This document shows, piece by piece, positions 34,098 through 48,734 of a stretch of DNA of 57,459 nt. A model generated the notes under the pieces. The model had not been told where the DNA came from. It worked only from the letters and a program-made list of their open reading frames with translations, and searched no databases. Positions within the stretch are counted from its first letter, which is position 1. Each line of letters begins with the position of its first letter. The position numbers and the translations under genes were made by a program. Location: contig JANXXE010000202.1 in NCBI GenBank assembly GCA_025350815.1, positions 1 through 57,459 of the forward strand, in the 5' to 3' direction. The DNA is from Myxococcales bacterium (GTDB taxonomy: Bacteria > Myxococcota_A > Polyangia > Fen-1088).

Positions 34098-36410
34098 GTG
34101 GCACGAGCGTTCTTGGCAGTCTCGTTGTGGTTGTCCCTGCTGATGGGAACGGCGTTCGCGCGCGTCGTCCAGATGCCCGAGGGGGGCAGGGCGGTGCCGG
34201 TTGCGGGAAAGGGTGTCATCTGTGGATCGCCGCCGGCCGGCTGGTCGCTGGAGGCCGATCGCACCGCACTGAGGCCCCCTGCGGCGGGTGACAGCCTCGC
34301 CCTTGTGCCCATCGACGTGACGATCGCCCCAAACCCTGAGTCCTGCGGACAAGCGAAGGATGTGGTGACGGTCGTCGCGACCGCGCCGTTGCCCGAGATC
34401 GAAGCTGCGGGTGTGGTCCTTCTGCCGGACGAAGGTCGGGTTGAGTTGCGCGGCCAGCGCCTGGCCGGCGTTCAGGTTCTGTGGGAGGCGGAGGGCAAGA
34501 CCGGCCAGGAGGCGTGTCTGGAGCCGTCCCCCACGGGCAAGGTCCAGCAGTGTGTCGTGCCCGTGCGGCCCCGCCTGCCCGCGGACGCGGCCCTGCGCTG
34601 GTTGCCGGCCCGGGGCCGTTCGGGCGGCGATGTCATCACCTTCGATGCCAACGGCGCGCGTCTTGAGCCCGCACAGATGGTGCTTCGGCCGTCCCGTACC
34701 GTTCTGTCGGCCATGTTCGCGGCGTCAGTCGCGGTCGATGTCTCGCAGGGCCGCGCCCGTGTTCCGTTGATTCACCCCGAGGCAGTCGCGTCCGTCGACT
34801 GCGGCCAGGCGACGTGCGAGCTGTCCGACGGGGCGTTGGTGATTTGGGGTGTGCCCGCGGCGGCCAGCAGCGTCACCGCCCGCCTGCGCCTGGCAGCGCG
34901 GGTCGTCTTTTCGAAGGGCAGCGCCACGGAAACGGTTGTCAGCGAATCGTTGCCGGTGTTTCGCTGCCAGCTGGCGATCGCGTCCGGCCCGCCTGTGCGC
35001 GACGCCGACGAAACCCAGTTGGTCGTGCGGATGGATCAGCAGGATCAGCGCTGTGGCAAGGATCTGCGCCTGCGCTGGACGATGGGCGGCGAGTCTTTGG
35101 AAGCCGTGCGGACTGTCCGGACCAAGGACGCGCTGTTCGTGCAGTTGCGCGCCGGGCGCATCACCGGCGAACGAATCACGGTGATGGCGGCGCGCGCCGA
35201 TCTGGACAACGCCAGCATCGCAACCGTCAGCGCGCCGACGGCGCCCGCGCCCCGGCCGCGCACGTTGATCGAGCTGCCCCGCATAGGAAAGATCGAGTTC
35301 ATACCGACGAACCGCGATGCGTGGCTGTCGGTCGCGGGCGCCGGAGATCACGCCCGTTTCGTCCCCCTGCCCATCGAGGGGGCCTATACCGTTCGCGGGA
35401 TGGAAGGCCGGCGTTTCCTGGTGCGCGGCGATGAGAACGCAGGCGGGTTTGTGTCACTGCGTTTCGGATATCGTGGCGAGGGGTTACCGTCCGAGTTCGC
35501 CGAGACCGATCTGGCAGTCGTCAGCGAACGCGTTCAGCGGGCCGTGCGTGAGGCCAGCGTGCCCGCGCCGCTGGGCGAGTCAGCCGAGGGAAGCAATCCG
35601 CTGGTTGAACTGTTGTGCGCTGACGCCCGCGGCGTGGCCCAGCGCCTGGCGCCCGGACGTCCCCACCGGATCCCTTTCGAGTCGCGGGGCACCTGCCGCG
35701 TCGTCATTCACCGCGAGCGGCTGCGCCCCGAAGACGGCCTGCAGGAAATCATCGTCGAGGCGGATGTCACGCGGCCCGACGGCAGCAGCCGGAGCGAGGC
35801 CAGGGTCAGCGAGCGCATGGTTCTGAATCCGGGCGCCGACAGCCGCGTCATCGCCCTGCGCGGTGGGACCGAACAATTCGATCACGTCCTGGTGCGCGTG
35901 TCGCACGTCTTCGACGAATCTCGCTATGCGCTGAGCCCCCTGGCGCGCAATGGTGTCCCGTCGGCACAGTGGTCGGTCACCATCGAAGGCGGCCGTTTTC
36001 GGCTGTACGCCACCGCCGAGATTCCGGCCGGCCTGTATCGTGTGAACGCGCCGTCCGGTCAGCTGACGTTGAACTTTGGGGTTTTGTCCCGCATCACGAC
36101 CCTCGACCCGCGTGGCAAGGAACGCCTTTTGGGGGCGGAACTCGGCCTAATGGGTGTGGGGCTGATCCAGAGTCCGGGGGCCATTGGCCAGTACCCGCCA
36201 ACGTTGGCAGCCGTGGGGGGACTCGGTATTCGGGTGCCGCTCGGGGGTGGCGCGGCGGTCAGTGTCCACGCCTGGGTAGCCTACGAATTCCGCCGTGACT
36301 TTCTTTACGCGCCCGATCTCAGCGACCAGATGCGGAAGCAGGACGCCCCACACTGGATGTTCATCTTCGGTCCCAGCATCGCCATAGGCAACGTCGGGAC
36401 GAATCTGTAG
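34098..36410 (+). CDS. Large secreted protein of unknown function, 770 aa
   Basis: The GTG start at 34098 gives a clear signal peptide (hydrophobic core LAVSLWLSLLMG, cleavage after AFA about residue 22). The rest is beta-rich and looks like several Ig-like modules with widely spaced Cys (for example near residues 43, 82, 133, 147, 235 and 242) that could pair in the periplasm. The last 110 residues (LGAELGLMGVGLIQ...VSVHAWVAYEFRRDF...MFIFGPSIAIGNVGTNL) have alternating hydrophobic strands compatible with a small outer-membrane beta-barrel or barrel fragment. I cannot name a family. TATCGT ends 6 nt before the start, with no Shine-Dalgarno. It ends 2 bp from the next, convergent gene. Confidence 0.7.
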   Translation: MARAFLAVSLWLSLLMGTAFARVVQMPEGGRAVPVAGKGVICGSPPAGWSLEADRTALRPPAAGDSLALVPIDVTIAPNPESCGQAKDVVTVVATAPLPEIEAAGVVLLPDEGRVELRGQRLAGVQVLWEAEGKTGQEACLEPSPTGKVQQCVVPVRPRLPADAALRWLPARGRSGGDVITFDANGARLEPAQMVLRPSRTVLSAMFAASVAVDVSQGRARVPLIHPEAVASVDCGQATCELSDGALVIWGVPAAASSVTARLRLAARVVFSKGSATETVVSESLPVFRCQLAIASGPPVRDADETQLVVRMDQQDQRCGKDLRLRWTMGGESLEAVRTVRTKDALFVQLRAGRITGERITVMAARADLDNASIATVSAPTAPAPRPRTLIELPRIGKIEFIPTNRDAWLSVAGAGDHARFVPLPIEGAYTVRGMEGRRFLVRGDENAGGFVSLRFGYRGEGLPSEFAETDLAVVSERVQRAVREASVPAPLGESAEGSNPLVELLCADARGVAQRLAPGRPHRIPFESRGTCRVVIHRERLRPEDGLQEIIVEADVTRPDGSSRSEARVSERMVLNPGADSRVIALRGGTEQFDHVLVRVSHVFDESRYALSPLARNGVPSAQWSVTIEGGRFRLYATAEIPAGLYRVNAPSGQLTLNFGVLSRITTLDPRGKERLLGAELGLMGVGLIQSPGAIGQYPPTLAAVGGLGIRVPLGGGAAVSVHAWVAYEFRRDFLYAPDLSDQMRKQDAPHWMFIFGPSIAIGNVGTNL

Positions 36411-36845: not shown

Positions 36846-37178
36846 GTGTTGCGCTCACGTTGTCTTGGAGCGCTCGCGCTGGGTGTCTTGTCTTCTCTCG
36901 GTTGCGGGCCCGTCGAGTACCTGAACCAGGTCAGCAGTCGCGCGGCGACGGCATTGCTGCTGGCGCAGCAGCAGGGGGCCCGGCGTTACGCCCCGTACGA
37001 ATACGCGAAAGCGGCGGAGTACTACCACAAGGCGCGCGAGGAGGCCGGGTACTCGTCCTACCAGGCGGCAATCGACTACGGGCGCAAGTGCGAGGAACTG
37101 GCCAGCAAGGCGCAGGCGTTGTCGCGCGAGCGGTCGGCGCCGCGTGCCGCGGGTTCCGCGCCGGCAGAGGCGAAATGA
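36846..37178 (+). CDS. DUF4398-like lipoprotein, 110 aa
   Basis: A small lipoprotein with lipobox SSLGC (Cys20), followed by a helical hairpin with YAPYEYAKAAEYYHKAREEAGYSSYQAAIDYG. This is the DUF4398 / periplasmic lipoprotein-TPR-like pattern, seen next to OmpA-domain genes in many Gram-negatives. The start is GTG 36846. Its stop overlaps the OmpA gene start in an ATGA, so the two are co-translated and probably form a peptidoglycan-tethering pair at the outer membrane. Confidence 0.8.
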   Translation: MLRSRCLGALALGVLSSLGCGPVEYLNQVSSRAATALLLAQQQGARRYAPYEYAKAAEYYHKAREEAGYSSYQAAIDYGRKCEELASKAQALSRERSAPRAAGSAPAEAK

Positions 37179-38269
37179 TCGCGCGCGAGGGTTCGCTGCC
37201 GTCGCGCCACGCATTGCTGTGTGTGCTGGTGATGACCGCGTCGGCATGCGCGGGCACGGACCTCGTGATGCAGGCGCGCGCTCTGCGCGGTGACGTCAAA
37301 GCCGTTCGCGACGACGGGGCGTACCGGTGTGCGCCGGTCGAACTGGCGCGGGCCGAGGCCAATGTCGAGTTCGCCGAGCAAGAACTGGATCAAGGCGACT
37401 ACTTTCGCGCGAAGGACCACCTCAAGATCGCCGACGCGAATGCCCGCGAGGCGCGTCGACTGTCACCGCCTGACAAATGCCGTGCCCCGGCCCGACCGGT
37501 GTCCGCCCGCCCCAACGATTCGGACGGCGATGGGATTCCCGACGACCAGGACAAGTGTCCGGCCGAGCCCGAAGATAGGGACGGGTTTCAAGACAGTGAT
37601 GGCTGTCCCGAACTCGACAACGACAGCGACGGCATCCTCGACACCAACGACAAGTGCCCGACCGAGCCCGAGGACGCTGACGGCTTCGAAGACAGTGACG
37701 GCTGCCCGGATCCCGACAACGATCAAGACGGTGTTCTGGACGCGGCCGACAAGTGTCCCGCCGACAAGGAAGACCGGGATGGCTTCGAGGACGGCGATGG
37801 CTGTCCTGATCCTGACAACGACAAGGACGGCGTGCTGGACGCGGCCGACAAGTGCCCGAACGAGGCGGGGCCGCGCGACAACGACGGTTGCCCGCAGAAG
37901 TTTGCGCTGATCAAAATCACCCAGGGAAAGATCGAGATCAAGCAGACCATATTCTTCCAGACGGCCAAGGCCGTCATCATGGGCAAGAGCTATCCCCTGC
38001 TCGACGAGGTTGCGCTGGCGCTCAAGGGGCGGCCGACGATGAACGTGCGCATCGAAGGGCACACCGACAGCCGTGGCAACCGCGCCCTGAACACGCGGCT
38101 GTCGGCGGCGCGCGCGGATTCGGTCAGGGCGTATCTGGTGGGCAAGGGCATCGGGGCGGATCGGCTGGAATCGCGGGGTTTCGGCCCCGACCAGCCGATC
38201 GAGACCAACAAGACCGCGACCGGGCGCGAAAAGAATCGCCGGGTCGAGTTCGTTATCACCCAGCAGTAG
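37175..38269 (+). CDS. OmpA-family lipoprotein with DUF4398-like and TSP3 repeats
   Basis: A 364-residue outer-membrane lipoprotein. Lipobox TASAC (Cys25) comes first, then a DUF4398-like helical region (about 40-95), then four thrombospondin type 3-like calcium-binding repeats rich in DxDxDG (about 114-239), then a C-terminal OmpA domain (about 260-362) with HTDSRGN and NTRLSAARADSVRAYL motifs that bind peptidoglycan. It thus links the outer membrane to the cell wall with a Ca-stiffened stalk. The start at ATG 37175 overlaps the upstream stop. The 366 bases of open frame before it are a shadow of the DUF4398 gene. Confidence 0.93.
   Translation: MIAREGSLPSRHALLCVLVMTASACAGTDLVMQARALRGDVKAVRDDGAYRCAPVELARAEANVEFAEQELDQGDYFRAKDHLKIADANAREARRLSPPDKCRAPARPVSARPNDSDGDGIPDDQDKCPAEPEDRDGFQDSDGCPELDNDSDGILDTNDKCPTEPEDADGFEDSDGCPDPDNDQDGVLDAADKCPADKEDRDGFEDGDGCPDPDNDKDGVLDAADKCPNEAGPRDNDGCPQKFALIKITQGKIEIKQTIFFQTAKAVIMGKSYPLLDEVALALKGRPTMNVRIEGHTDSRGNRALNTRLSAARADSVRAYLVGKGIGADRLESRGFGPDQPIETNKTATGREKNRRVEFVITQQ
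37513..37893 (+). repeat. TSP3-type calcium-binding repeat region
   Basis: Coding repeats in the OmpA lipoprotein with unit DxDGDGxxDxxDKCP...DxDGFxDxDGCPxxDN. Four units of about 30 residues are seen; the last is shortened. Asp/Asn positions match calcium-binding TSP3 repeats. Confidence 0.85.
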
Positions 38270-38287
38270 TCATCAGGAGGTGAGCGC

Positions 38288-40036
38288 GTGATTGACCCTT
38301 GCAAAGGCCGCGTCAGGACTTCGGCGACGCGGCTCGTGGTTCTGCTGTGCGCTCTTGGTTGCGGCAGCGCCTACGCTGACGAAAGCCCGACCGATCGACT
38401 GAAGACGCTCAATCGCGAGGCGCTGGCCAGTTACGCGTCGTCTGACTTCGATTCTGCCAAGGTGTCGCTGCTTGAAGCCATCGGCGTCGGCACGAAGGCT
38501 GCGCTGTCCGACAGTCCGATGATGGCGCGGACCTACGTGCATCTCGCGGCCGTTTATCTCAACGGATACAAGGATCGCGGCCACGCACTTCGTTATCTGA
38601 TGACCGCGCTGAAGATCCGATCGGACATCGAGCTGACGGAGGCTGTGGCGACGCCGGCCCTCAAAGACGTTTTCGCGCTGGCCCAGGCGGAGGCCAAGCG
38701 CAATGCAGCGGCGGCGGCCAAGGCCCCGCCTGTTGTCGGTGCCGCGCCCGCACCGGTCGCGAAGCCCGCGCCCGCGCCGGTCGCGGAAAGGCCCGCGCCG
38801 GTCGCGAAGCCCGCGCCGGTCGTGGAGAAGCCCGCACCGGTGGTAAAGCCCGCGCCCGCACCGGTCGCGAAGCCCGCACCGGTCGTCGAAAAGCCCGCGT
38901 CCGCGCCCGCCCCCAAGGCCCCGGCTGCTGCCCCGGCGCCGGTCGTCGCGCAAGCGCCGAAGCCGAAGCCGCAGCCCAAGGCCAAGGTCGAGAAGAAGCG
39001 AGTCGGTCCCGAGGAGCCGGACCTGCCCGCCAGCATTCCGCAGGCGCTGTACTGTCCCAACGTCGACGAGGCCCCGCCCCGTGCGCAGATGCTGTTGCGT
39101 TGTGTGGCGCAACCGGGTGTCAGGATGGCCCGCGTCCTGTTGTTCTATCGCGCCCCGGGCAAGGAGGACTTCACTGCGGTGCCGATGGTGAAGTCACCAA
39201 AGGGTTGGTACTCGGGCGTGGTACCAGCTGATGTCGTGACGGCCAAGTCGCTGCAATATTATTTCGAAGCGCGCGATGGTTCCGACAAAGCGGTGGCTGA
39301 CAACGGCCGCAACGACAGCCCCAACCTGATGATCATCCGCGCCGGTGTTCCGCCCGTCGGGCAGGGGGCGGCGGGGCTGCGTGTTTCCCGGCGGGGCGAT
39401 GGCGACGCCGCTTCGGCCGAGGACAATCCCCTTTCCCACATCGAGGCTGAAAAGGTACGGGAGCTGGAGGAAGCGGGTCACCACATGCGCGAGGCCAAGG
39501 CCCTGTGGATTGGGTTCGGTGTCGGGTCAGGATACGGCTGGCACCCTTCGACGAAGCTCGAGTACCACAACAAGTTGAGCGTGGGCGCCGGCTTCACCCC
39601 TGCCGGCTTGCTGCACTTCATCCCTGAGGTCGGGTACCAGGTGACTTCGTCGCTGGCGATCTCACTGGCCGTTCGTTACCAGTACGTGCCGTCGAGCGGC
39701 TCGGGTGACGTGACCGTTGGCGCCCCCAAGACCAGCGCTGTCGCGGCGCTGGTGCGCGTCTTTCAGTTCTTCGGTGAGGGGAACACCCAGCCGTTCGTGT
39801 CCGGCATGCTGGGCGGCGGCCAGGGCGTGCGTCTTGTCGTGTCGCCGAAGCCCGACATGGGTCTCATCTCCAGCGACACCGTGCGCGGCGGGCCGCTGCT
39901 CGTCGGGGCCGGCGGGGGCATCCTGTACCACTTGAGCCCGCACGCCGCGATTGTGGCCGAGCTCAAGTTGACGCTGGGTGCGGGGGATCTGGCGGCGGTC
40001 TTCGACCTGACGACAGGCGTTCAGATCGGATTCTGA
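38288..40036 (+). CDS. Outer-membrane protein with TPR-like, Pro-rich and beta-barrel parts
   Basis: A 582-residue exported protein. After a signal peptide (about 1-31) come a helical TPR-like domain (about 35-130), a repeated Lys-Pro-Ala-Pro-Val linker (about 150-235), an Ig-like beta domain with two Cys (about 255-350), a short helix and a C-terminal outer-membrane beta-barrel-like part (about 395-582, ending in GVQIGF with terminal Phe). The terminal Phe fits BAM recognition. Start GTG 38288 has a perfect AGGAGGTGA (38275-38283) 5 nt upstream. It follows the OmpA gene by 18 bp, and its end overlaps the convergent kinase gene by 16 bp. Confidence 0.8.
   Translation: MIDPCKGRVRTSATRLVVLLCALGCGSAYADESPTDRLKTLNREALASYASSDFDSAKVSLLEAIGVGTKAALSDSPMMARTYVHLAAVYLNGYKDRGHALRYLMTALKIRSDIELTEAVATPALKDVFALAQAEAKRNAAAAAKAPPVVGAAPAPVAKPAPAPVAERPAPVAKPAPVVEKPAPVVKPAPAPVAKPAPVVEKPASAPAPKAPAAAPAPVVAQAPKPKPQPKAKVEKKRVGPEEPDLPASIPQALYCPNVDEAPPRAQMLLRCVAQPGVRMARVLLFYRAPGKEDFTAVPMVKSPKGWYSGVVPADVVTAKSLQYYFEARDGSDKAVADNGRNDSPNLMIIRAGVPPVGQGAAGLRVSRRGDGDAASAEDNPLSHIEAEKVRELEEAGHHMREAKALWIGFGVGSGYGWHPSTKLEYHNKLSVGAGFTPAGLLHFIPEVGYQVTSSLAISLAVRYQYVPSSGSGDVTVGAPKTSAVAALVRVFQFFGEGNTQPFVSGMLGGGQGVRLVVSPKPDMGLISSDTVRGGPLLVGAGGGILYHLSPHAAIVAELKLTLGAGDLAAVFDLTTGVQIGF
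38746..38900 (+). repeat. KPAP(V/A) coding repeat in the Pro-rich linker
   Basis: A short-period repeat of (G)CGAAGCCCGC(GC)CGGTCG-like units encoding KPAPV/KPAPAPV/EKPAPV in irregular order. The low-complexity DNA could vary in length by recombination. Confidence 0.8.
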
Positions 40037-41166
40037 CCGGGGTCCGTCGGCGAGAACACCTGTGCCGCCTGTGCGACCGCGCTGGCCCGCTGGTGCGGGT
40101 CGGCGATCGTCAGGGCGGCGACCAGGCGCAACAGGCGCGGGTATTCCTGGTCAAGGGCCCGGCTGGTCGGCAGTGGCCCGGGATCGTAGCGACCGGCGAT
40201 CAGATCGGCTTGCGTGCGCAGGGGACTGCCGGCCAGCGCTTCCCAGAGCACGGCGCCGGCCGCGAACAAATCCGTCTGGACCGATGGCGCCGCCCCCCGA
40301 AACTGCTCGGGCGCCAGATAAAGCGGGGTGCCGCCGGGGCTGTCAGGACCTTCGGGCTGCGCCCCCGGGCCGCGCGCCACGCCAAAATCTGCCAGCACCG
40401 GCTGTCCCGAATCACGAAACAGAATGTTCCGCGGTGTGATGTCAGCGTGGACGACGCCCTGGCCGTGGACGAAGGCCAGCGTCGACAACAGGCCGCGCGC
40501 TATCCTGGCGACGTCAGCGGGCGGCAGTCGGCGGTCGGGTGCAACGTTCAGTCGGTCGCGCAGCGATCCGCCGGGCAGAAATTCCATGGCCAGCAAACCG
40601 GCCGCCTCGTCGAGGTCGTAGACCGCGACCACGCCGGGGTGTCGGAGGCTGGCCATAGTACGTGCCTCATTGAAGAAGCGCCGGGCGGACACGTTTGCGC
40701 GCCCGGGGCCGCCCGTCGGGTGAAGAATCTTGAGCGCCAGCGGCAGGTCAAGGGTGCGATCTCGAGCCAGGTAGACGGTGGCCGTGGCGCCCCGGCCGAG
40801 TTCGCGCTGCAATTCGAAGCGCTGCACGGGCACACCGGCCGGGCCGGACAGCGTTGCGGTCGCCATCGTCGTGGGGGGCGGCGGCAGGTGGACCTGGTCC
40901 CCCCGCGCGGGCGCGAGGCGGTCGAGATGGGCGAGGGCCTCGGGATGATCGATGTCGTCCGCAAGCAGGCGTTCCCAGCGGACGATCGCGGCGGAGGTCC
41001 GACCCTCTTGCTCGTCGAGCTCGGCCAGTCGCGCCAGGGCCGCCGCACCGATTTGTTCCCCGCGGTCTTCCAGCGGCGTCAGGACCGCCCGCGCCGCCGT
41101 CGCTTCGCCCAAAGAGGCCAGGCGCGTCCCGTGCGCCAGCGCCTCGGCGGCCTCGTCGTCGGTCAC
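40021..41166 (-). CDS. Hanks-type Ser/Thr protein kinase with TPR-like N terminus
   Basis: A 381-residue soluble kinase. Residues 1-85 are helical and TPR-like. The kinase domain (about 117-375) has Gly-loop LGRGATAT (123-130), catalytic K146, E167, catalytic loop H240-A241-D242 with N247, D260-F-G, and APEQF (285-289). The usual HRD is HAD, so this is a non-RD kinase and may not depend on activation-loop phosphorylation. There is no TM helix or PASTA domain. Its GTG start overlaps the FHA gene stop (GTGA), so it is translated with that gene. The FHA protein is the obvious phosphothreonine reader for it. Confidence 0.92.
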   Translation of the reverse strand: MTDDEAAEALAHGTRLASLGEATAARAVLTPLEDRGEQIGAAALARLAELDEQEGRTSAAIVRWERLLADDIDHPEALAHLDRLAPARGDQVHLPPPPTTMATATLSGPAGVPVQRFELQRELGRGATATVYLARDRTLDLPLALKILHPTGGPGRANVSARRFFNEARTMASLRHPGVVAVYDLDEAAGLLAMEFLPGGSLRDRLNVAPDRRLPPADVARIARGLLSTLAFVHGQGVVHADITPRNILFRDSGQPVLADFGVARGPGAQPEGPDSPGGTPLYLAPEQFRGAAPSVQTDLFAAGAVLWEALAGSPLRTQADLIAGRYDPGPLPTSRALDQEYPRLLRLVAALTIADPHQRASAVAQAAQVFSPTDPGQNPI

Positions 41167-42335
41167 GCGATCTCCAGGCGCAACGATCCAGATTCAAGTT
41201 CGAGGACGTCGCCGACCAGAAGATCGCAGACCGGCCCGACCAGATGTCCCGCGATTCGCAGCGACACGCCGGGCGCGCGCCCCAGTCGGATGGTGTCGGG
41301 ACAGAAGGACACCGAAAGCCCCGCCGCACCGGAGAATGCGTTGACCAGAGGTATCGGGCCCGTCCCGACGACGGCGACCAGACCGCGATCCAGGCCCGTG
41401 TGGCAGACCAGTTCCACGAGGCCGGGTCCCAGGGATCGGTAGGTGAGTTCGCAGTGGTCCCCGAGACCGAGGCGGCCTTCACCCGTGAGCGCGAAGGGCT
41501 GGCCGATGGGGATCCCGGCGATGCGGGTGCCGACGCGAGAGCCCGCGTCCTGTACGACCAAACCCTCAGTTCCCGCGACGATGGTGGCGTGGCGCCGTGA
41601 CACGCTGGGGTCACGCAGGACAACCTGCGCCAGTCCGTCGCGGCCAAGAAGGCAGGGAGTTTCCGCGACGCGAACCCGCCGCCCGTCGGATCCGATCAGC
41701 GTCAGGGCGCGGCCCCGGCACAAGCGGCGTTCCAGATCGCGGGCTGAAGCACGCAGGGCGCTGCCGTCGGGGTGGCCGTCAGGGATCTCGGATGCCGCCC
41801 CGACCGCCGCCGCGCGCTCGCCGGACGCAAGAAGGATCTCGAAACGGCGAAAGGCGTCGGCCGCGGTTCGTCGATGCGCGCGCGCGTTGTCGTCGCGGGC
41901 CAAGGCGGCCTCTAGAGGCTCGATCGCGCCCAGGGCGGCATACGCATCAGCGGCGCGCACATGATCACCGGTCCGCTCGAAGATCTCGGCCGCCCGCTGG
42001 AAGTCCCCCACCTCAAATAGAAGCTCACCCGCCGCGCGGAGGGCGTGCATGACGGCCGCCGTCGGTTCGGCGCAACGGGCTCTGCCAACGAGGGCGGCCG
42101 CCGCCAGCCGCTTGAGGCTCGACACCGGCTCGCCTCCGGTGGCTTCTGCAATGGCCGAGGTCGACTCGTGAAGATCTTCCAGTGTCGTCGGCTCGCCGCC
42201 CGCCTCGTTCAACAATCGTTCGATAGCCGTCCAGTCCCGGTCGCGCACCAGCCGGCGCGTGAGGACCCCCAGCCGTCCCTCTTTCACGGCGGTCTGAAGA
42301 TCCTGCGCTGACAGCGGCGACTTGGCGTCGGCCAT
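41163..42335 (-). CDS. FHA-domain protein with TPR-like N terminus
   Basis: A 390-residue protein. Residues 1-200 are helical and TPR-like. An FHA domain (about 207-300) contains LLGRD (229-233), S245-RRH (247-249) and GSRVGTRI near 265-272 (Asn of the canonical motif replaced), so phosphothreonine binding is plausible. A second beta-rich region (about 310-390) ends the protein. The start is ATG 42335 with TACCCT on the minus strand 9 nt before it. It is the first gene of the FHA-kinase pair and is divergent from the 501-aa unknown gene across 54 bp. The 550 residues of open frame upstream are a shadow. Confidence 0.9.
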   Translation of the reverse strand: MADAKSPLSAQDLQTAVKEGRLGVLTRRLVRDRDWTAIERLLNEAGGEPTTLEDLHESTSAIAEATGGEPVSSLKRLAAAALVGRARCAEPTAAVMHALRAAGELLFEVGDFQRAAEIFERTGDHVRAADAYAALGAIEPLEAALARDDNARAHRRTAADAFRRFEILLASGERAAAVGAASEIPDGHPDGSALRASARDLERRLCRGRALTLIGSDGRRVRVAETPCLLGRDGLAQVVLRDPSVSRRHATIVAGTEGLVVQDAGSRVGTRIAGIPIGQPFALTGEGRLGLGDHCELTYRSLGPGLVELVCHTGLDRGLVAVVGTGPIPLVNAFSGAAGLSVSFCPDTIRLGRAPGVSLRIAGHLVGPVCDLLVGDVLELESGSLRLEIA

Positions 42336-42389
42336 TGTCTGTGAAGGGTAGCGCGCAGCGGGGCAACCCCCAAGGTACACTGAGGATCC
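42336..42389. promoter_or_regulatory. 54-bp divergent promoter region
   Basis: TACACT (42376-42381) lies 8 nt before the ATG of the 501-aa gene and TACCCT (minus strand, 42350-42345) lies 9 nt before the FHA ATG. Two back-to-back, short-leader promoters would couple the two gene pairs. A GAGGA just before 42390 could also serve as a Shine-Dalgarno for the rightward gene. Confidence 0.35.
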
Positions 42390-43895
42390 ATGCTGACCCG
42401 GGTGGCGTCTGGCCAGGCGCGTTTCGTCGTGCCGGGGTTGACCACCGACGCGCGTGGCATCGCCGCAGGCAAGCAACTGGCCCTGCGGTTTCCGACCTGG
42501 GATCGGGCGGTGTCGTTTCTGCGGGTGCTCAGTGGCGCCGCTTGCCCGGACGAGATCTGGCACGGGCTGCGGCTTCACCACCTTCGTCCGACGGACGGCA
42601 TGCGCGAGTTGCTGATCGTGGTGCCGCACACCTCGTCGCACGTTGCCGATGGGGTGGCGCGCGCGGCCCGCCTGGCCGGCGGCGCGTGCTTCACCGGGAC
42701 GGGGCGCCACTTCGTTCCGTATCGGGACAAGGATGCGCCACTTGGTTACGACGCTGCGACGCTGGTTCACACCGGCGATGGGGATCTGATCTTGTACACC
42801 GCCAATCAGTCCGTTGCGTGCCAGCTGCAAGGGGACATCCCATTCGACAGTCTGCTCCTGCGCCTCGACCTGCGGCGCGAACCGCGGGGCGCCCAGGCCA
42901 TGGCGCGCGAAGACGAAGCGGGCGTTCTTTACCTGTCCTGTCGCCGGGGCCTGGGCCCCGTGCTGGCGGCGCATTTCTATCGTTCGGGCGTCCAGGCCGA
43001 TACGGCGGAGTGCGAGCCGGACAGCGCGAGCCCGTTTGGCGATGAGACTCCCTTCTGGCTGTTTCGCCTGCGGCACGTGCCTGCACGCCTGCTGGGTCTT
43101 GTCGTCGGCACGCCCGGCCTTCAGCTTTACCGCGCCGTGCTCGACAACGTGGCCGTGGCCGTCGGATTTGCGCACGTTCTTCACCTCGAAGGCTGCCGCG
43201 CGGCGGTTGCACCGGATCGTTTCCTGTTGCTGCGGCCGCGGCCCGGCAGACCGGTGGTGATGACGTCGCCGCCCGATTTCGTCCCACTGGGCGATCGGGT
43301 GGCGATTCCGGGGCAGGGCGGGAACGAAATCGCGACCATGACACCCGCTCGGCGGTCGGCGACGGGGCTCGGGGTCCCGCTGCGCCTCGAACGATCGCCG
43401 GCATCGCGGCCCCGCCCGGTCGCAAGCTGGATTCCGTGGTCGCAGGCCGATTGGCTGCGCCGGCTGTGCTACGCGCTTCCGACGTCCGCGTTGGCGGGCT
43501 ACCGGCTGGCATTGCTTGAGGCGGGCATCCTGGTGCTGGCGCCAGAACGGCTGGAAGGCTTTCCCTTCGGTCGGCCGCTGGAGGAAGCGGCACCTGGCGT
43601 CCTCATCCCAGTGGGGACTTGCGTTCGGCCCGCGGTATCGCCCAGCCTCATTCGCGATTCTCTCGCCGCCGGCGGGGATGGGACGTTTGTCTTCTCCGCC
43701 GCGGATGCGCCGCCGTTTCGGATCGCTGATGAATCCTTCGCGCCCTTCGAGCGACGGGTTCTGTCGCGAATCGCTGTGTCGACGCCACCGATGGTGGGGG
43801 CGCTGCCGTCTGCCACGCCGCCCCCGGGCGCGGCTGCCCCGGAGGTTGAGAACGATGCCCTCGGCCCATTGCCGGTGTGGGGCCTGCGCCGATAA
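42390..43895 (+). CDS. Unrecognised 501-aa protein (possible ternary-system accessory)
   Basis: A large soluble protein with no motif I can name. It shows several beta-rich segments; VPARLLGLVVGTPGLQLYRAV followed by NVAVAVGFAHVLHLEGC and FLLLRP looks like a module recurring in proteins from vWA-MoxR/FtsH ternary systems, but this is from memory and uncertain. The C terminus is Pro/Ala-rich. There is no signal peptide. ATG 42390 has GAGGA and TACACT upstream. It is paired with the 366-aa gene 15 bp downstream and divergent from the FHA-kinase pair. Confidence 0.55.
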   Translation: MLTRVASGQARFVVPGLTTDARGIAAGKQLALRFPTWDRAVSFLRVLSGAACPDEIWHGLRLHHLRPTDGMRELLIVVPHTSSHVADGVARAARLAGGACFTGTGRHFVPYRDKDAPLGYDAATLVHTGDGDLILYTANQSVACQLQGDIPFDSLLLRLDLRREPRGAQAMAREDEAGVLYLSCRRGLGPVLAAHFYRSGVQADTAECEPDSASPFGDETPFWLFRLRHVPARLLGLVVGTPGLQLYRAVLDNVAVAVGFAHVLHLEGCRAAVAPDRFLLLRPRPGRPVVMTSPPDFVPLGDRVAIPGQGGNEIATMTPARRSATGLGVPLRLERSPASRPRPVASWIPWSQADWLRRLCYALPTSALAGYRLALLEAGILVLAPERLEGFPFGRPLEEAAPGVLIPVGTCVRPAVSPSLIRDSLAAGGDGTFVFSAADAPPFRIADESFAPFERRVLSRIAVSTPPMVGALPSATPPPGAAAPEVENDALGPLPVWGLRR

Positions 43896-43910
43896 CGCCG
43901 GCGGGTGATC

Positions 43911-45011
43911 ATGGCGCGGGCATTCGTCGGTCGCTTTCTTCTGCCTTTGGTCCAAGGGGGACCGTTGCACGTCGGCAGGCCGATCGGACAGCGGCATCTA
44001 GCGCGAATTCTGTCCGCCGCAGAAGCCGGGTCCGAACGCGAGGCCGCGCAGAAGCTTGAGGCGCATCGACACGCTGAGGCGCGCGCCCTGGTTTCTGGTG
44101 TTCAGGCCCCTTTACTGGACGAGGCGACGTTGCGGCTGGGTGTCACGGTTCACAACCTCCTCGCCCTCGGGCATCCGTCGCTGGCGGGTAAGGCCAACGA
44201 GGGGCGGCGCCACCGAATTGCCGCTGTGACCGAGGGTCTCGCCGACCTGGGGCCGCCCCGCAGTGTTGCCGAAACCGTCGGCCGCCACACGCTGCTCGCC
44301 CGACTACCCGACATCGGGCACACCTCACACCTGGTGCAGCAATGGTGGGGTCAGCAGCGATTCGTCGGCCGGACGCCGCCCGCGCGTGTGCTGGCCCTGC
44401 CGAGCCTTCGACGTGTCAAGCACACGTTCGTGCGGCGTGGATGGGTCAAGGAGGTCGGCGTGGCGCCGTACGCGCGCGCGGCGTGGCTGGCGCTGCATCG
44501 GGCCAGTCCCCTGGCGGAGGCGCTGGATCCGCTGCGACTTGATCCTCCCTGGGCCTGGGAGCGTGTGTTACCGATTCTGCGTTTCGCACCCATCTTCCGC
44601 CTGGTCGCGGGCCGCGTTCTGGAGATCGGCGTTGCGCCTACCGGCGGGGCCATGGTGTCCGCCCTGTTTCGTCTGGCTTCGCTTCGCGAACCAAACACGG
44701 GGGCCGCCGCGCCGCCCGGACACCTTGCCTTTGCGATCGGGTTCCTCGCGCATGTCCTTTGGCTGGATGGCCTGTTCGGGCGCGCCTCGACGCCGCTGGC
44801 GGCGCCCGAGCTGGAGGCCGTTGTCCTGGCGGCCAGCGAGATCCGTCCAGGCCTGGTCTGGCCACCCGATGTCGACGCCACCACGGGCGCGGGCCGGTTC
44901 TTCGCAGACAGACTGGCGCAGATGCGTCGCGAACTGCTACTGACCGCCCCTGCACGGTACGTCGCGGCCCGGGCCCTGTGTCGCAGGGCAGTCCCCGACA
45001 TGTCGGGATAG
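43911..45011 (+). CDS. Unrecognised 366-aa helical protein
   Basis: A mostly helical, basic protein without recognised domains, signal peptide or definite TM helix. It is rich in Arg/Ala and Trp/Leu patches (TSHLVQQWWGQQRFVG, PYARAAWLALHRASPLAEAL). The start could be ATG 43911 (GGCGGGTGA upstream) or GTG 43905. It directly follows the 501-aa gene and is presumably co-expressed. The vWA lipoprotein gene begins 81 bp later with its own Shine-Dalgarno. Role unknown. Confidence 0.5.
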   Translation: MARAFVGRFLLPLVQGGPLHVGRPIGQRHLARILSAAEAGSEREAAQKLEAHRHAEARALVSGVQAPLLDEATLRLGVTVHNLLALGHPSLAGKANEGRRHRIAAVTEGLADLGPPRSVAETVGRHTLLARLPDIGHTSHLVQQWWGQQRFVGRTPPARVLALPSLRRVKHTFVRRGWVKEVGVAPYARAAWLALHRASPLAEALDPLRLDPPWAWERVLPILRFAPIFRLVAGRVLEIGVAPTGGAMVSALFRLASLREPNTGAAAPPGHLAFAIGFLAHVLWLDGLFGRASTPLAAPELEAVVLAASEIRPGLVWPPDVDATTGAGRFFADRLAQMRRELLLTAPARYVAARALCRRAVPDMSG

Positions 45012-45092: not shown

Positions 45093-46238
45093 ATGCGGTA
45101 CGCGCGTCCACTTCTCGGAGCCATTCTCACGCTCGCGGCTTGTTCGACTGATCCCGCGATCAAACCGACGACATCGGACAAGGCCACCGGCGGCGGGGCA
45201 GGCGGGGCCGACACCTCGAACACGACGGGCACTGGCGGCGCCACCGGGGGCGCCACCGGCGGTACTGGCGGTGGCTTCACGGTCAGGATTCCCGACGCTG
45301 GCACCGGCACCGGCACAACCTCGAACACCCCGGACGGGGGCGTGCGCGGGGGCGGTATGTGTGGCATGGAAGACTTCAAGCTCGATCGACTGCCGCCCGA
45401 GCTCTTGATCGTTCTCGACCGCTCGGGCTCGATGACCACCAAGGTGCCGCCCACGGCCGGCGCCACGCGCTGGACGGAAGTAACAGCCGCGCTGGACGAG
45501 ACAGTGATGAAGACCGAGGCTGGCGTGCTCTGGGGTCTGAAGATGTTCCCCAGCGTCGACGGCTGCATGGTCAGCGCCCCGGCCGAAGTGGACATCGCGG
45601 TGAACAACTACGCCGCCGTGGGCGGCAAGATCAAGATGTCGGCGCCCGCGATGGGCGGCGGTGGGACGCCCACCACTTTGGCGATGAACAGCGCGCTGGC
45701 CTATATGCAAACGCGGACGGCGTCGAAGAATCCGAAGTACCTGTTGCTTGCCACCGACGGTGAGCCGAATTGCGGGGCGGGTGGGGCGAGGACGGCTGAC
45801 AACGCGGGCGCCGTCGGCGCGGTCAAGGCGGCCTTCACGGCTGGCTTCCACACCTTCGTCGTCGGCATCGCCACCGCGGGTACGGGCGCCAACACGGTTC
45901 TTAACGATATGGCCACCGCGGGCGGCGAGCCCCGCCAGGGCGACCCCAAGTACTACGCCATCGCCAACCGGCAAGATCTGGTGATGGCCCTGGCGCAGAT
46001 CACGTCTGCGGTGTCCACCTGTGTGTTCCCGCTGGCCAAGGTGCCGCCGTCGCCCGACGACGTGGCCGTGAACGTCGATGGCAAGCGTGTTCCCCGTGAC
46101 AAGGCGCAGATGGACGGCTGGAACTACGGCGCCGACATGAAGTCGATCCAGCTTTACGGACCGTGGTGCGAGGGGCTCAAGATGAACGCCGGCGACGTGA
46201 AAATCATCTTCGGTTGCCCCGGGGTGATCATTCCGTAG
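45093..46238 (+). CDS. vWA-domain lipoprotein
   Basis: A 381-residue exported lipoprotein: lipobox TLAAC (Cys17), a Gly/Thr-rich linker (31-85), then a von Willebrand factor A domain (about 102-300). The MIDAS is complete enough to bind metal: D109-R-S-G-S113, a Thr in GGGTPTT and the Asp of ATDGEPN. The tail after the vWA part is a beta-rich domain with two Cys pairs (STCVF, PWCEG, FGCPG). Probable adhesion or protein-interaction module on the outer surface. GGAAAGGAC before ATG 45093 sets the start. It is adjacent to the MoxR gene, a common vWA partner, although partner vWA proteins are usually inner-membrane or cytoplasmic. Confidence 0.88.
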   Translation: MRYARPLLGAILTLAACSTDPAIKPTTSDKATGGGAGGADTSNTTGTGGATGGATGGTGGGFTVRIPDAGTGTGTTSNTPDGGVRGGGMCGMEDFKLDRLPPELLIVLDRSGSMTTKVPPTAGATRWTEVTAALDETVMKTEAGVLWGLKMFPSVDGCMVSAPAEVDIAVNNYAAVGGKIKMSAPAMGGGGTPTTLAMNSALAYMQTRTASKNPKYLLLATDGEPNCGAGGARTADNAGAVGAVKAAFTAGFHTFVVGIATAGTGANTVLNDMATAGGEPRQGDPKYYAIANRQDLVMALAQITSAVSTCVFPLAKVPPSPDDVAVNVDGKRVPRDKAQMDGWNYGADMKSIQLYGPWCEGLKMNAGDVKIIFGCPGVIIP

Positions 46239-46311: not shown

Positions 46312-47529
46312 ATGAACTTGTCTGAACCCCCGCCGGCAGCGCCGGTCGCAGTCGACAACGCGCAGGTCGCTGCCGTCGCACAGAAGCTGAACGGGGTGGC
46401 GCGCGCACTTGGGCAGTGCTTCCTGGGCAAGGATGAGACCATCCGGCTGGCCCTCATTGCCCTCGTCGCGGGCGAGCACATGTTGATTGTGGGCCCCCCC
46501 GGTACCGCGAAGTCGGCACTGGTGCGGCAGCTCGCCCGCCTGGTGGACGCACGCTACTTCGAATACCTGCTGACGCGTTTCTCTGAACCGAACGAAATCT
46601 TCGGGCCGATCGACATCAAGGCCTTTCGCGAGGGGTCCTACCTGCGGCGCACGGAGGCGATGTTGCCCGCGGCCGAGATCGTCTTCCTGGACGAGGTTTT
46701 CAAATCCAACTCCGCCATCTTGAATTCGCTGCTGGCGATCATGAACGAGCGACGCTTCTTCACGGGAAGTCGCACGCTGACCGTGCCGCTGCGCTCGTTG
46801 TTTGCCGCCACCAATGAGGTTCCCAACGACGAGGGCCTGGCGGCGGTCTTCGACCGGTTCCTCATCCGCGCCAGTTCGGACAACCTTGAAAGCTTTCATT
46901 TCCACGGGCTGGTCGGGCGCGGCATCGAGGCCGAGGTTGCGCACCTGGGCGGCAGTGATGACGCAGCCGCGGCGCTGGTGTCCCTGACCGAGATTGCTGG
47001 CTTGCAAAGGGCCACGGCCGGTCTTCTGCGTGTCGGCGACGAATTTCTCGCGCGCTACAAGGGCCTCGTCTTCCAGATCCGTTCCGAAGGTGTGTCGCTG
47101 AGCGATCGCCGTGTGGTGAAGCTGCTGAAGCTCTTCGCGGCCAGTGCCGCCCTCGACGGCCGATCGGCGGTGGACGACCGCGATCTGTTTATTCTGAAGC
47201 ACGTCTGGAACAGCGTCGAGCAGATAGGCTTGCTCAAGGACATCGTCGCGCCTGTCCTCGAACGGCACCAGAGCGAACATCCCGAGTCGCCACGTCCCGA
47301 CGCCGGGAACGTCGACCTCGACACTGTGCTGGTCGAACTGGGCACCATTCGCGGGTTGCTGCTAGGTGGCTCGTCGCTGTCGGACATTCAGCTTTTTTCG
47401 CAGCTGAGAAATCTACAAGATATACGGACGACGTTGCTGGCCCTGGGTACGCCCACGGCCCAGCAGATGGTCAGCGAGGTCGACAAATTGCTTGAAGGCG
47501 TGTTCGAGTCATCCCGATGGACCGCCTGA
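46312..47529 (+). CDS. MoxR-family AAA+ ATPase (RavA-like)
   Basis: A 405-residue chaperone-like ATPase. Walker A GPPGTAKS (61-68), the typical EPNEIFGPIDI insert (92-102), Walker B IVFLDE (123-128), sensor-1 N168 and an arginine finger near R182 (DRFLIRA) are all intact. RavA-type MoxR proteins work with vWA partners to remodel complexes. Start ATG 46312, TATAGT 11 nt upstream. The C-terminal 100 residues contain a helical LARA-like region. It overlaps the methylase gene by 13 bp. Confidence 0.94.
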   Translation: MNLSEPPPAAPVAVDNAQVAAVAQKLNGVARALGQCFLGKDETIRLALIALVAGEHMLIVGPPGTAKSALVRQLARLVDARYFEYLLTRFSEPNEIFGPIDIKAFREGSYLRRTEAMLPAAEIVFLDEVFKSNSAILNSLLAIMNERRFFTGSRTLTVPLRSLFAATNEVPNDEGLAAVFDRFLIRASSDNLESFHFHGLVGRGIEAEVAHLGGSDDAAAALVSLTEIAGLQRATAGLLRVGDEFLARYKGLVFQIRSEGVSLSDRRVVKLLKLFAASAALDGRSAVDDRDLFILKHVWNSVEQIGLLKDIVAPVLERHQSEHPESPRPDAGNVDLDTVLVELGTIRGLLLGGSSLSDIQLFSQLRNLQDIRTTLLALGTPTAQQMVSEVDKLLEGVFESSRWTA

Positions 47530-48734
47530 AACCGCCACCAGAGGTTCGGCAGCGCCGGGCGTTCTCCACGCTCGGTGGTCCCGTCACAACCGGCGGCGAC
47601 GGCGAATCCGGTCGCGCCCTGGCCCGTTTGTTTCACGTCGACGCGGCGCTGGCGCGGGCGCTGACACACGGTTTTCACAGCTATGCGGGCCGCATGCACC
47701 CGGGCATCGCGCGTGGTGCGGTCGCCCAGTGGAGCCGCCCCGGCGGCAGGGTGCTCGATCCTTTTTGCGGCAGCGGCACGGTACTGGTCGAGGCCTTCGC
47801 CGCTGGGCGCGCATCGGTGGGCGTCGACGCCAGCCCGCTTGCCGTCCAACTAGCCCAGGTGCGTTCGACGACCTTGGGCGCCGAGGGCCGGTCGCGCCTG
47901 GTGCAGGTGGCCACCGAGATCGCGACCGAATCGGCGGAACGGGCGCGCAAGCGCAAGCGGCCAGAAAGCGCGATCTGGGCCAAGGACGAGTTCAAGCGTT
48001 TCCATCCGCACGTCGCTCTCGAACTGTTGGGCCTGCGCGAGTTGGTGATGGCGACGCCCCAGGACGACATCGGTCGCGCCCTGCGACTGTGCCTTTCGTC
48101 GCTCTTGGTGAAGTTCATGCGGACCGGGCCCGAGGCGCCGCGCGACGGTGAGACGAAGCGCATCGGTCGGGGTGTCCCCTCGCGTTTCTTGGCCGATCGT
48201 GCGCGCGAGCTGACGGGCGGCCTGCAGGCACTGGAGCGCCGCGCGCAACCCGGCACGCCGCCGCCCGAGGTGATTCTGGGCGACGCGCGTTCGTACCCGA
48301 AGATTGCGTCCGAACAGTTTGATCTGGTGCTGTCGTCGCCGCCCTACGCCGGGACCTACGACTACGCCGACCAGCACGCAGTGCGCTTTACCTGGCTGGG
48401 GTTGCCGGGCCGGGTGTTCCGCCAGAACCAGATAGGCGAGCGCAGCGAAGGCATGGGCTCGGCGGCGCGAGATTGGATTGAGGATCGCAAGCGCTGGCTG
48501 TCCGAACTGGCCCGGGTCCTGAAGCCATCCGGTCACGCCCTGCTGGTGGTCGGCGACGGTGTCGTCGGGGGCGCGCCCGAGGATGCCGTCGAGGCGATGG
48601 CGGATGCCGCGCCGTCGGCGGGTCTGCGCGCGGTGGCATGGGCGTCACAGGCCCGTCCGACCCGGGACCGCCGCCTGCAGGAGATCTTCGGCGGCAAGCC
48701 GCGGCGCGAGCATCTGGTTCTGCTGCGCCGCTAG
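47517..48734 (+). CDS. Site-specific DNA methylase (or RNA methylase) of the N4/N6 type
   Basis: A 405-residue amino-methyltransferase. SAM motif DPFCGSGTVLVEA (81-93) precedes the catalytic SPPY (274-277), the order of beta-class N4-cytosine / N6-adenine DNA methylases and of TRM11-like RNA methylases. HGFHSYAGRMHPGIAR near residue 51 occurs in both. A long basic region (KRKRPES, about 145-152) sits between motifs. No endonuclease gene is beside it, so it is an orphan methylase or an RNA modifier. ATG 47517 lies inside the MoxR 3' end. The next gene is parB, convergent. Confidence 0.82.
   Translation: MDRLKPPPEVRQRRAFSTLGGPVTTGGDGESGRALARLFHVDAALARALTHGFHSYAGRMHPGIARGAVAQWSRPGGRVLDPFCGSGTVLVEAFAAGRASVGVDASPLAVQLAQVRSTTLGAEGRSRLVQVATEIATESAERARKRKRPESAIWAKDEFKRFHPHVALELLGLRELVMATPQDDIGRALRLCLSSLLVKFMRTGPEAPRDGETKRIGRGVPSRFLADRARELTGGLQALERRAQPGTPPPEVILGDARSYPKIASEQFDLVLSSPPYAGTYDYADQHAVRFTWLGLPGRVFRQNQIGERSEGMGSAARDWIEDRKRWLSELARVLKPSGHALLVVGDGVVGGAPEDAVEAMADAAPSAGLRAVAWASQARPTRDRRLQEIFGGKPRREHLVLLRR

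Follow-up and report, generated by a model that had tools for sequence, protein, structure and literature searches.

The four genes at positions 40021–45011 of the window (the whole 57,459-nucleotide stretch analysed here), encoding a kinase, an FHA-domain protein and two proteins of 501 and 366 residues (p501 and p366), belong to a genuine protein-remodelling machine of myxobacteria, widely conserved and little studied. It is best read as a vertically inherited MoxR-vWA remodelling chaperone that lacks FtsH and is probably controlled by phosphorylation. The window corresponds to contig C101 in a 4.5-Mb genome with relatives among the Myxococcota of the Polyangia type.

The Ser/Thr protein kinase (381 aa, helical N-terminus, GTG start; 40021–41166) and the FHA protein (390 aa; 41163–42335) are encoded on the minus strand and match PF00069 (1e-34) and PF00498 (3.8e-9), respectively, both passing the profile cut-offs. 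The end of the FHA gene overlaps the kinase start by 4 bases (GTGA), bearing out the translational coupling proposed in an earlier note on this DNA, and the overlap recurs in homologues. A 54-bp intergenic region (42336–42389) separates the FHA gene from the divergent p501 gene (42390–43895, plus strand), followed on the same strand after 15 bp by p366 (43911–45011, or 368 aa from an in-frame GTG at 43905), a vWA lipoprotein gene (45093–46238), a 405-aa MoxR AAA+ ATPase of the bpMoxR/RavA type (46312–47529) and a DNA-methylase-like methyltransferase (MTase) gene (47517–48734; PF01555, 3.6e-15) that overlaps the MoxR end. The 54-bp spacing and the plus-strand gene order described earlier agree with these coordinates; the back-to-back short-leader promoters placed in the gap were not found by a sigma-70-like scan of its surroundings, a scan that is weak for myxobacteria. 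A 944-aa minus-strand ORF running across p501 arises by spurious extension of the FHA frame upstream and was discarded. Adjoining the kinase are DUF4398-like, OmpA-like and TPR/beta-barrel genes (36846–40036), a placement kept only in the window's family, and a 770-aa protein with no Pfam or NCBIfam match is encoded at 34098–36410.

Gene calling covered 40 loci anchored on p501, each up to 20 kb long, and 80 named loci anchored on the vWA gene. The recurring order has FHA and kinase genes on one strand and, divergently, p501, p366, MoxR, a ~490-aa vWA protein and a ~610-aa TPR/HEAT protein, with start/stop overlaps of 4 bases common within the operon. Among the p501 genes of the vWA-anchored set that had enough flank, p366 and MoxR follow p501 in 46/46 and all four partners lie downstream in 37/46. 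The operon has no fixed gene for FtsH, a beta-propeller or an effector. It is nearly universal in some families of the class and is present in the cultured strains Nannocystis exedens DSM 71, N. pusilla DSM 53165 and Enhygromyxa salina SWB007. The divergent FHA-kinase and p501-p366 pairs are not peculiar to the window, being neighbours in many other genomes; of the six-gene neighbourhood first proposed, the FHA-kinase pair, p501, p366 and MoxR recur, the vWA lipoprotein does not, and the operon's own vWA and HEAT genes were missing from that reading. Insertions between MoxR, vWA and HEAT in other lineages encode a receiver-like protein or a further kinase, as would fit a machine accepting various signalling inputs.

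Of 290 genomes of the class, 184 encode p501 homologues, as a rule a single one; most are full length, at ~28–48% identity. The gene is thus no chance ORF. When a profile was run against 284 genomes from the whole phylum, full-length copies outside the class came up in only a few genomes of two families, and none was found in plasmid and phage collections. The window protein alone has no Pfam, NCBIfam or PADLOC match; the family links are visible through its homologues. Among the 29 alignment members, 25 match bpX2 weakly (best 1.2e-5; the individual scores seen lie below the curated cut-off of 23.6) and eight match fvmX7 (best 2.3e-11; some above cut-off), the window protein not being one of the eight. 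Aligned with fvmX7 proteins by hhalign, the p501 profile scores 98.9% (E 2.5e-17) over 311 columns. As judged from these profiles, p501 is a distant relative of the ternary-system domains bpX2 and fvmX7, and the impression that the 501-aa protein recalls accessory domains of such systems was well founded. Its predicted structure consists of alpha+beta modules (pLDDT 83, pTM 0.61) and is less certain than the model of p366.

p366 represents a new protein family. It has no Pfam, NCBIfam or PADLOC match, and hhalign found no relation to fvmX6, to fvmX7 proteins, to the vWA protein or to any other profile tried. The model (pLDDT 93.4) is mostly helical with a small strand region, a predicted fold without a counterpart in the PDB. 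The gene lies directly downstream of p501 in most loci, and the 366-aa protein holds up as a new component. A relation of the two proteins to ternary-system families was thus borne out by profile for p501 and not for p366, and neither predicted fold matched a PDB structure at E 0.001.

The window MoxR contains the bpMoxR domain (PF20030, 3.7e-72), and its nearest solved structure is RavA (5e-47). No LARA domain was detected in its 405 residues, which matched only AAA/lid families. The P-loop reads GPPGTAKS, with GTAKS invariant in 23 homologues, and so carries the GXXXTAKS variant noted for the MoxRs of FtsH and beta-propeller ternary systems (PMC7159879). In a tree built from both kinds of MoxR, those of the p501 operon (support 86/91) stand apart from the simple FtsH-type MoxRs (100/99). 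The adjoining MTase is lineage-specific and not part of the core; the same gene lies between MoxR and vWA in relatives of the window's family (loci L039, L040 and L133–L136). A small receiver-like protein (REC13, sub-threshold Response_reg) occupies the interval between MoxR and vWA in some families (L044:4949–5335, L169:9363–9758).

The vWA lipoprotein encoded between p366 and MoxR is an unrelated insertion outside the machine. We had to reject it as the MoxR co-chaperone, and as the machine part it was first taken for, on three grounds: it has a lipobox (LTLAAC), it resembles the adhesin CglB (model NF033757) below cut-off (67 bits; cut-off 200), and it was found between p366 and MoxR in 0/40 p501-anchored loci. 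Profile searches of the other loci (L039–L078, L133–L212) recovered no relatives. With its lipobox it should be exported, and it would be hard to fit as the partner of a cytoplasmic AAA+ ring.

The window contains no vWA or HEAT gene of the operon families. The true vWA gene lies elsewhere in the same genome (about C19:17033–18358), as does the TPR/HEAT gene (about C19:12917–14611), both as open frames; within this locus (L112, C19:5001–20632) they are separated by two unrelated genes, nucleotidyltransferase-like and pyruvate-kinase-like. A split is seen too in genome G039, from the window's family, where ~127 kb of a single contig lie between vWA-HEAT and p501-MoxR; in family f11, vWA and p501 are likewise unlinked. 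Over 290 genomes, 178 have both p501 and vWA, 94 have neither and 18 are discordant (6 and 12), several of the latter being incomplete assemblies (Fisher 1.6e-54, from a count by genome, which overstates independence since relatives share history). The co-occurrence holds also in genomes where the two genes are unlinked, and this unlinked co-retention is the best evidence that p501 and vWA work together. Seven of the eight searched genomes of family f1 that are without vWA are also without p501, so the two were probably lost together.

In the ~490-aa protein a helical N-terminal region precedes the vWA domain, which occupies the C-terminal end. The window genome's own copy alone does not match ivWA, yet 13/20 family members do (best 1.4e-5) and the family profile aligns with canonical ivWA proteins by hhalign (98.5%, E 2.1e-15); the divergent, ivWA-like vWA of ternary systems is thus present at the level of the family profile. 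The profile matched no PDB sequence. The family retains the DxSxS motif, with D272 and S276 invariant and S274 almost so (alignment A3); in our reading of the same alignment the second MIDAS Asp appears to be replaced by an invariant His (T368 H369). According to Kaur et al. (PMC7159879), some of these systems have lost one Asp or both.

An FHA and a kinase gene lie upstream of p501 in 19/37 vWA-anchored and 11/36 p501-anchored loci, counts obtained with profiles built from these same homologues, so that divergent FHA genes may have escaped them. The pair is missing beside many p501 loci and is not obligatory. In the window, the FHA domain keeps the GR and SRRH residues of the phosphopeptide site, and the kinase keeps the G-loop, beta3 Lys, catalytic Asp, DFG and APE, with Thr in its catalytic loop (HADITPRN) where most neighbours have Lys. 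The FHA protein had been called TPR-like; its N-terminus gave only a sub-threshold TPR match (E 0.3), which does not confirm that description. PADLOC matches of the kinase to PD-T4-6 and mad6 were set aside as generic kinase similarity. On the kinase's far side a ~210-aa putative lipoprotein with a weak Methyltransf_FA match occurs repeatedly (L044:13528–14178 and L138:2149–2757, among others), often followed by a very large kinase.

We consider it fairly probable that p501, p366 and MoxR form one MoxR-vWA remodelling machine together with the vWA and TPR/HEAT proteins of contig C19, the kinase-FHA pair probably gating it where present. We infer that these proteins assemble physically. A RavA-like MoxR hexamer would work with the vWA co-chaperone, which would capture the client; p501 (bpX2/fvmX7-like) and p366 would be adaptors, the TPR/HEAT protein would provide a scaffold, and ATP hydrolysis would remodel or assemble the client complex. 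In a third to half of loci, the window included, the kinase-FHA pair probably gates the machine: the kinase would phosphorylate a component or the client, and the FHA protein would bind the phosphopeptide. The Thr in the catalytic loop of the window kinase, the apparent His at the second MIDAS position of the vWA protein and the many p501 loci that lack a neighbouring kinase-FHA pair weigh against this reading. Kinase-FHA control of a MoxR-vWA machine with new components, as the earlier note envisaged it, keeps its conserved adjacency and p366 as a new part; the control itself is suggested by gene position only, and the lipoprotein drops out.

How the operon is inherited bears on its role. Trees of p501 and of the operon MoxR group the GTDB families together, whereas the FtsH-type MoxRs of the same class mix families (f6 falls in two places, and f11, f12, f14 and f26 are mixed). 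Because the operon genes follow taxonomy and the FtsH-type MoxRs are scattered, inheritance argues for a resident rather than a mobile immune role. A conflict system against invaders, of the kind represented by the FtsH and beta-propeller ternary systems and working by regulated assembly against phages in multicellular myxobacteria, would account for the domains that p501 and the vWA protein share with predicted conflict systems (PMC7159879), for the faster divergence of p501 than of MoxR, and for the signalling genes or MTases inserted in some lineages. The operon nevertheless descends vertically in single copy and has no fixed or hypervariable effector; the mobility, variability and effector expected of anti-phage defence were not found, neither as plasmid or phage copies nor as PADLOC matches for p501 or p366. 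Vertical, single-copy inheritance and the lack of a fixed effector weaken the conflict-system label, and we regard such a role as rather unlikely.

Two further accounts concern the parts of the locus. The kinase-FHA pair might have nothing to do with the MoxR module and regulate, for example, the outer-membrane genes on its other side, the adjacency having been inherited by chance. The pair is indeed not found at half or more of p501 loci, OmpA and TPR-barrel genes flank it in the window's family, and the class is rich in FHA proteins, with 24 FHA matches in the window genome. Since several families share the divergent arrangement although their outer neighbours differ, and the gene nearest p501 is usually FHA, we think this unlikely. 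That the module in the window genome is a split, decaying and functionless remnant seems very improbable: vWA and HEAT do lie on another contig with two genes between them, and a lipoprotein gene has been inserted between p366 and MoxR, but all five core genes are open, without stops, and other lineages (G039, f11) likewise retain the genes in unlinked form. Returning to the resident chaperone, a more specific version holds that it is a kinase-FHA-gated five-protein machine with a core function in Polyangia-type myxobacteria, sharing ancestry with the mobile FtsH ternary immune systems. We put this forward tentatively; if it is true, a single family has given rise both to immune machines and to a housekeeping chaperone. 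To our knowledge, the immune function of MoxR-vWA ternary systems is a prediction, and nearly everything known of them comes from comparative genomics; a vertically kept, effector-less relative in cultured strains would offer a tractable route to the core role of MoxR-vWA-X without effectors.

With no FtsH and no propeller, the operon is neither an FtsH nor a beta-propeller ternary system. Sequence comparison indicates that it is related to both, sharing MoxR, vWA and p501; p366 and the HEAT protein are absent from the canonical loci read. Like the FtsH ternary systems (MoxR-ivWA-FtsH, fvmX1–X7; PMC7159879), it has an fvmX7-like protein followed in order by MoxR and vWA, a GxxxTAKS MoxR and a divergent vWA with an N-terminal helical region. 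Unlike them, it lacks the double-AAA FtsH component, fvmX1/fvmX6, and Ubl/E2/JAB or caspase genes, and it has p366, a TPR/HEAT protein and often the FHA-kinase pair; its MoxR clade is separate and its inheritance vertical. No FtsH domain was found in p501, p366, MoxR, vWA or HEAT, whereas canonical FtsH ternary loci of the same class comprise fvmX6, an AAA/M41 protein, a ~1100-aa fvmX7 protein (the length in the simple type, against ~500 aa for p501), MoxR and ivWA. A more complex FtsH ternary locus (L122, L123) has fvmX1, JAB-like and E2-like genes and a ~530-aa stand-alone fvmX7 protein. Some of the p501 loci may already be listed under fvmX7 in the supplementary tables of Kaur et al. With the MoxR-vWA-beta-propeller ternary systems (bpX0–bpX6) the operon shares the bpMoxR domain and a bpX2-like p501. 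It differs from them in that no beta-propeller was found on either the vWA protein, with its C-terminal vWA domain, or the fifth protein, which is TPR/HEAT; across 193 genomes of the class nothing matched bpX1 above its cut-off.

A MoxR with a dedicated vWA partner, the general trait of MoxR-vWA chaperone pairs, is evident in the operon from gene order and co-occurrence. The resemblance to RavA-ViaA of E. coli lies in a RavA-like AAA+ protein paired with a ~490-aa protein bearing a C-terminal vWA domain, a presumed two-part chaperone core; the p501-operon MoxR differs in having no LARA match, and the operon in having three extra conserved proteins. NorQ-NorD of Paracoccus likewise joins a MoxR AAA+ to a C-terminal vWA partner and acts by remodelling a client complex, and there the client enzyme is identified; its MoxR belongs to what we take to be a different MoxR subfamily. 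The MIDAS residues of that pair are needed for client activation and not for NorQ binding (PMC9976466). Known MoxR-vWA pairs remodel complexes (PMC9976466; PMC7159879), and it is by analogy with characterised pairs such as NorQ-NorD that we propose client remodelling as the probable work of the p501 operon.
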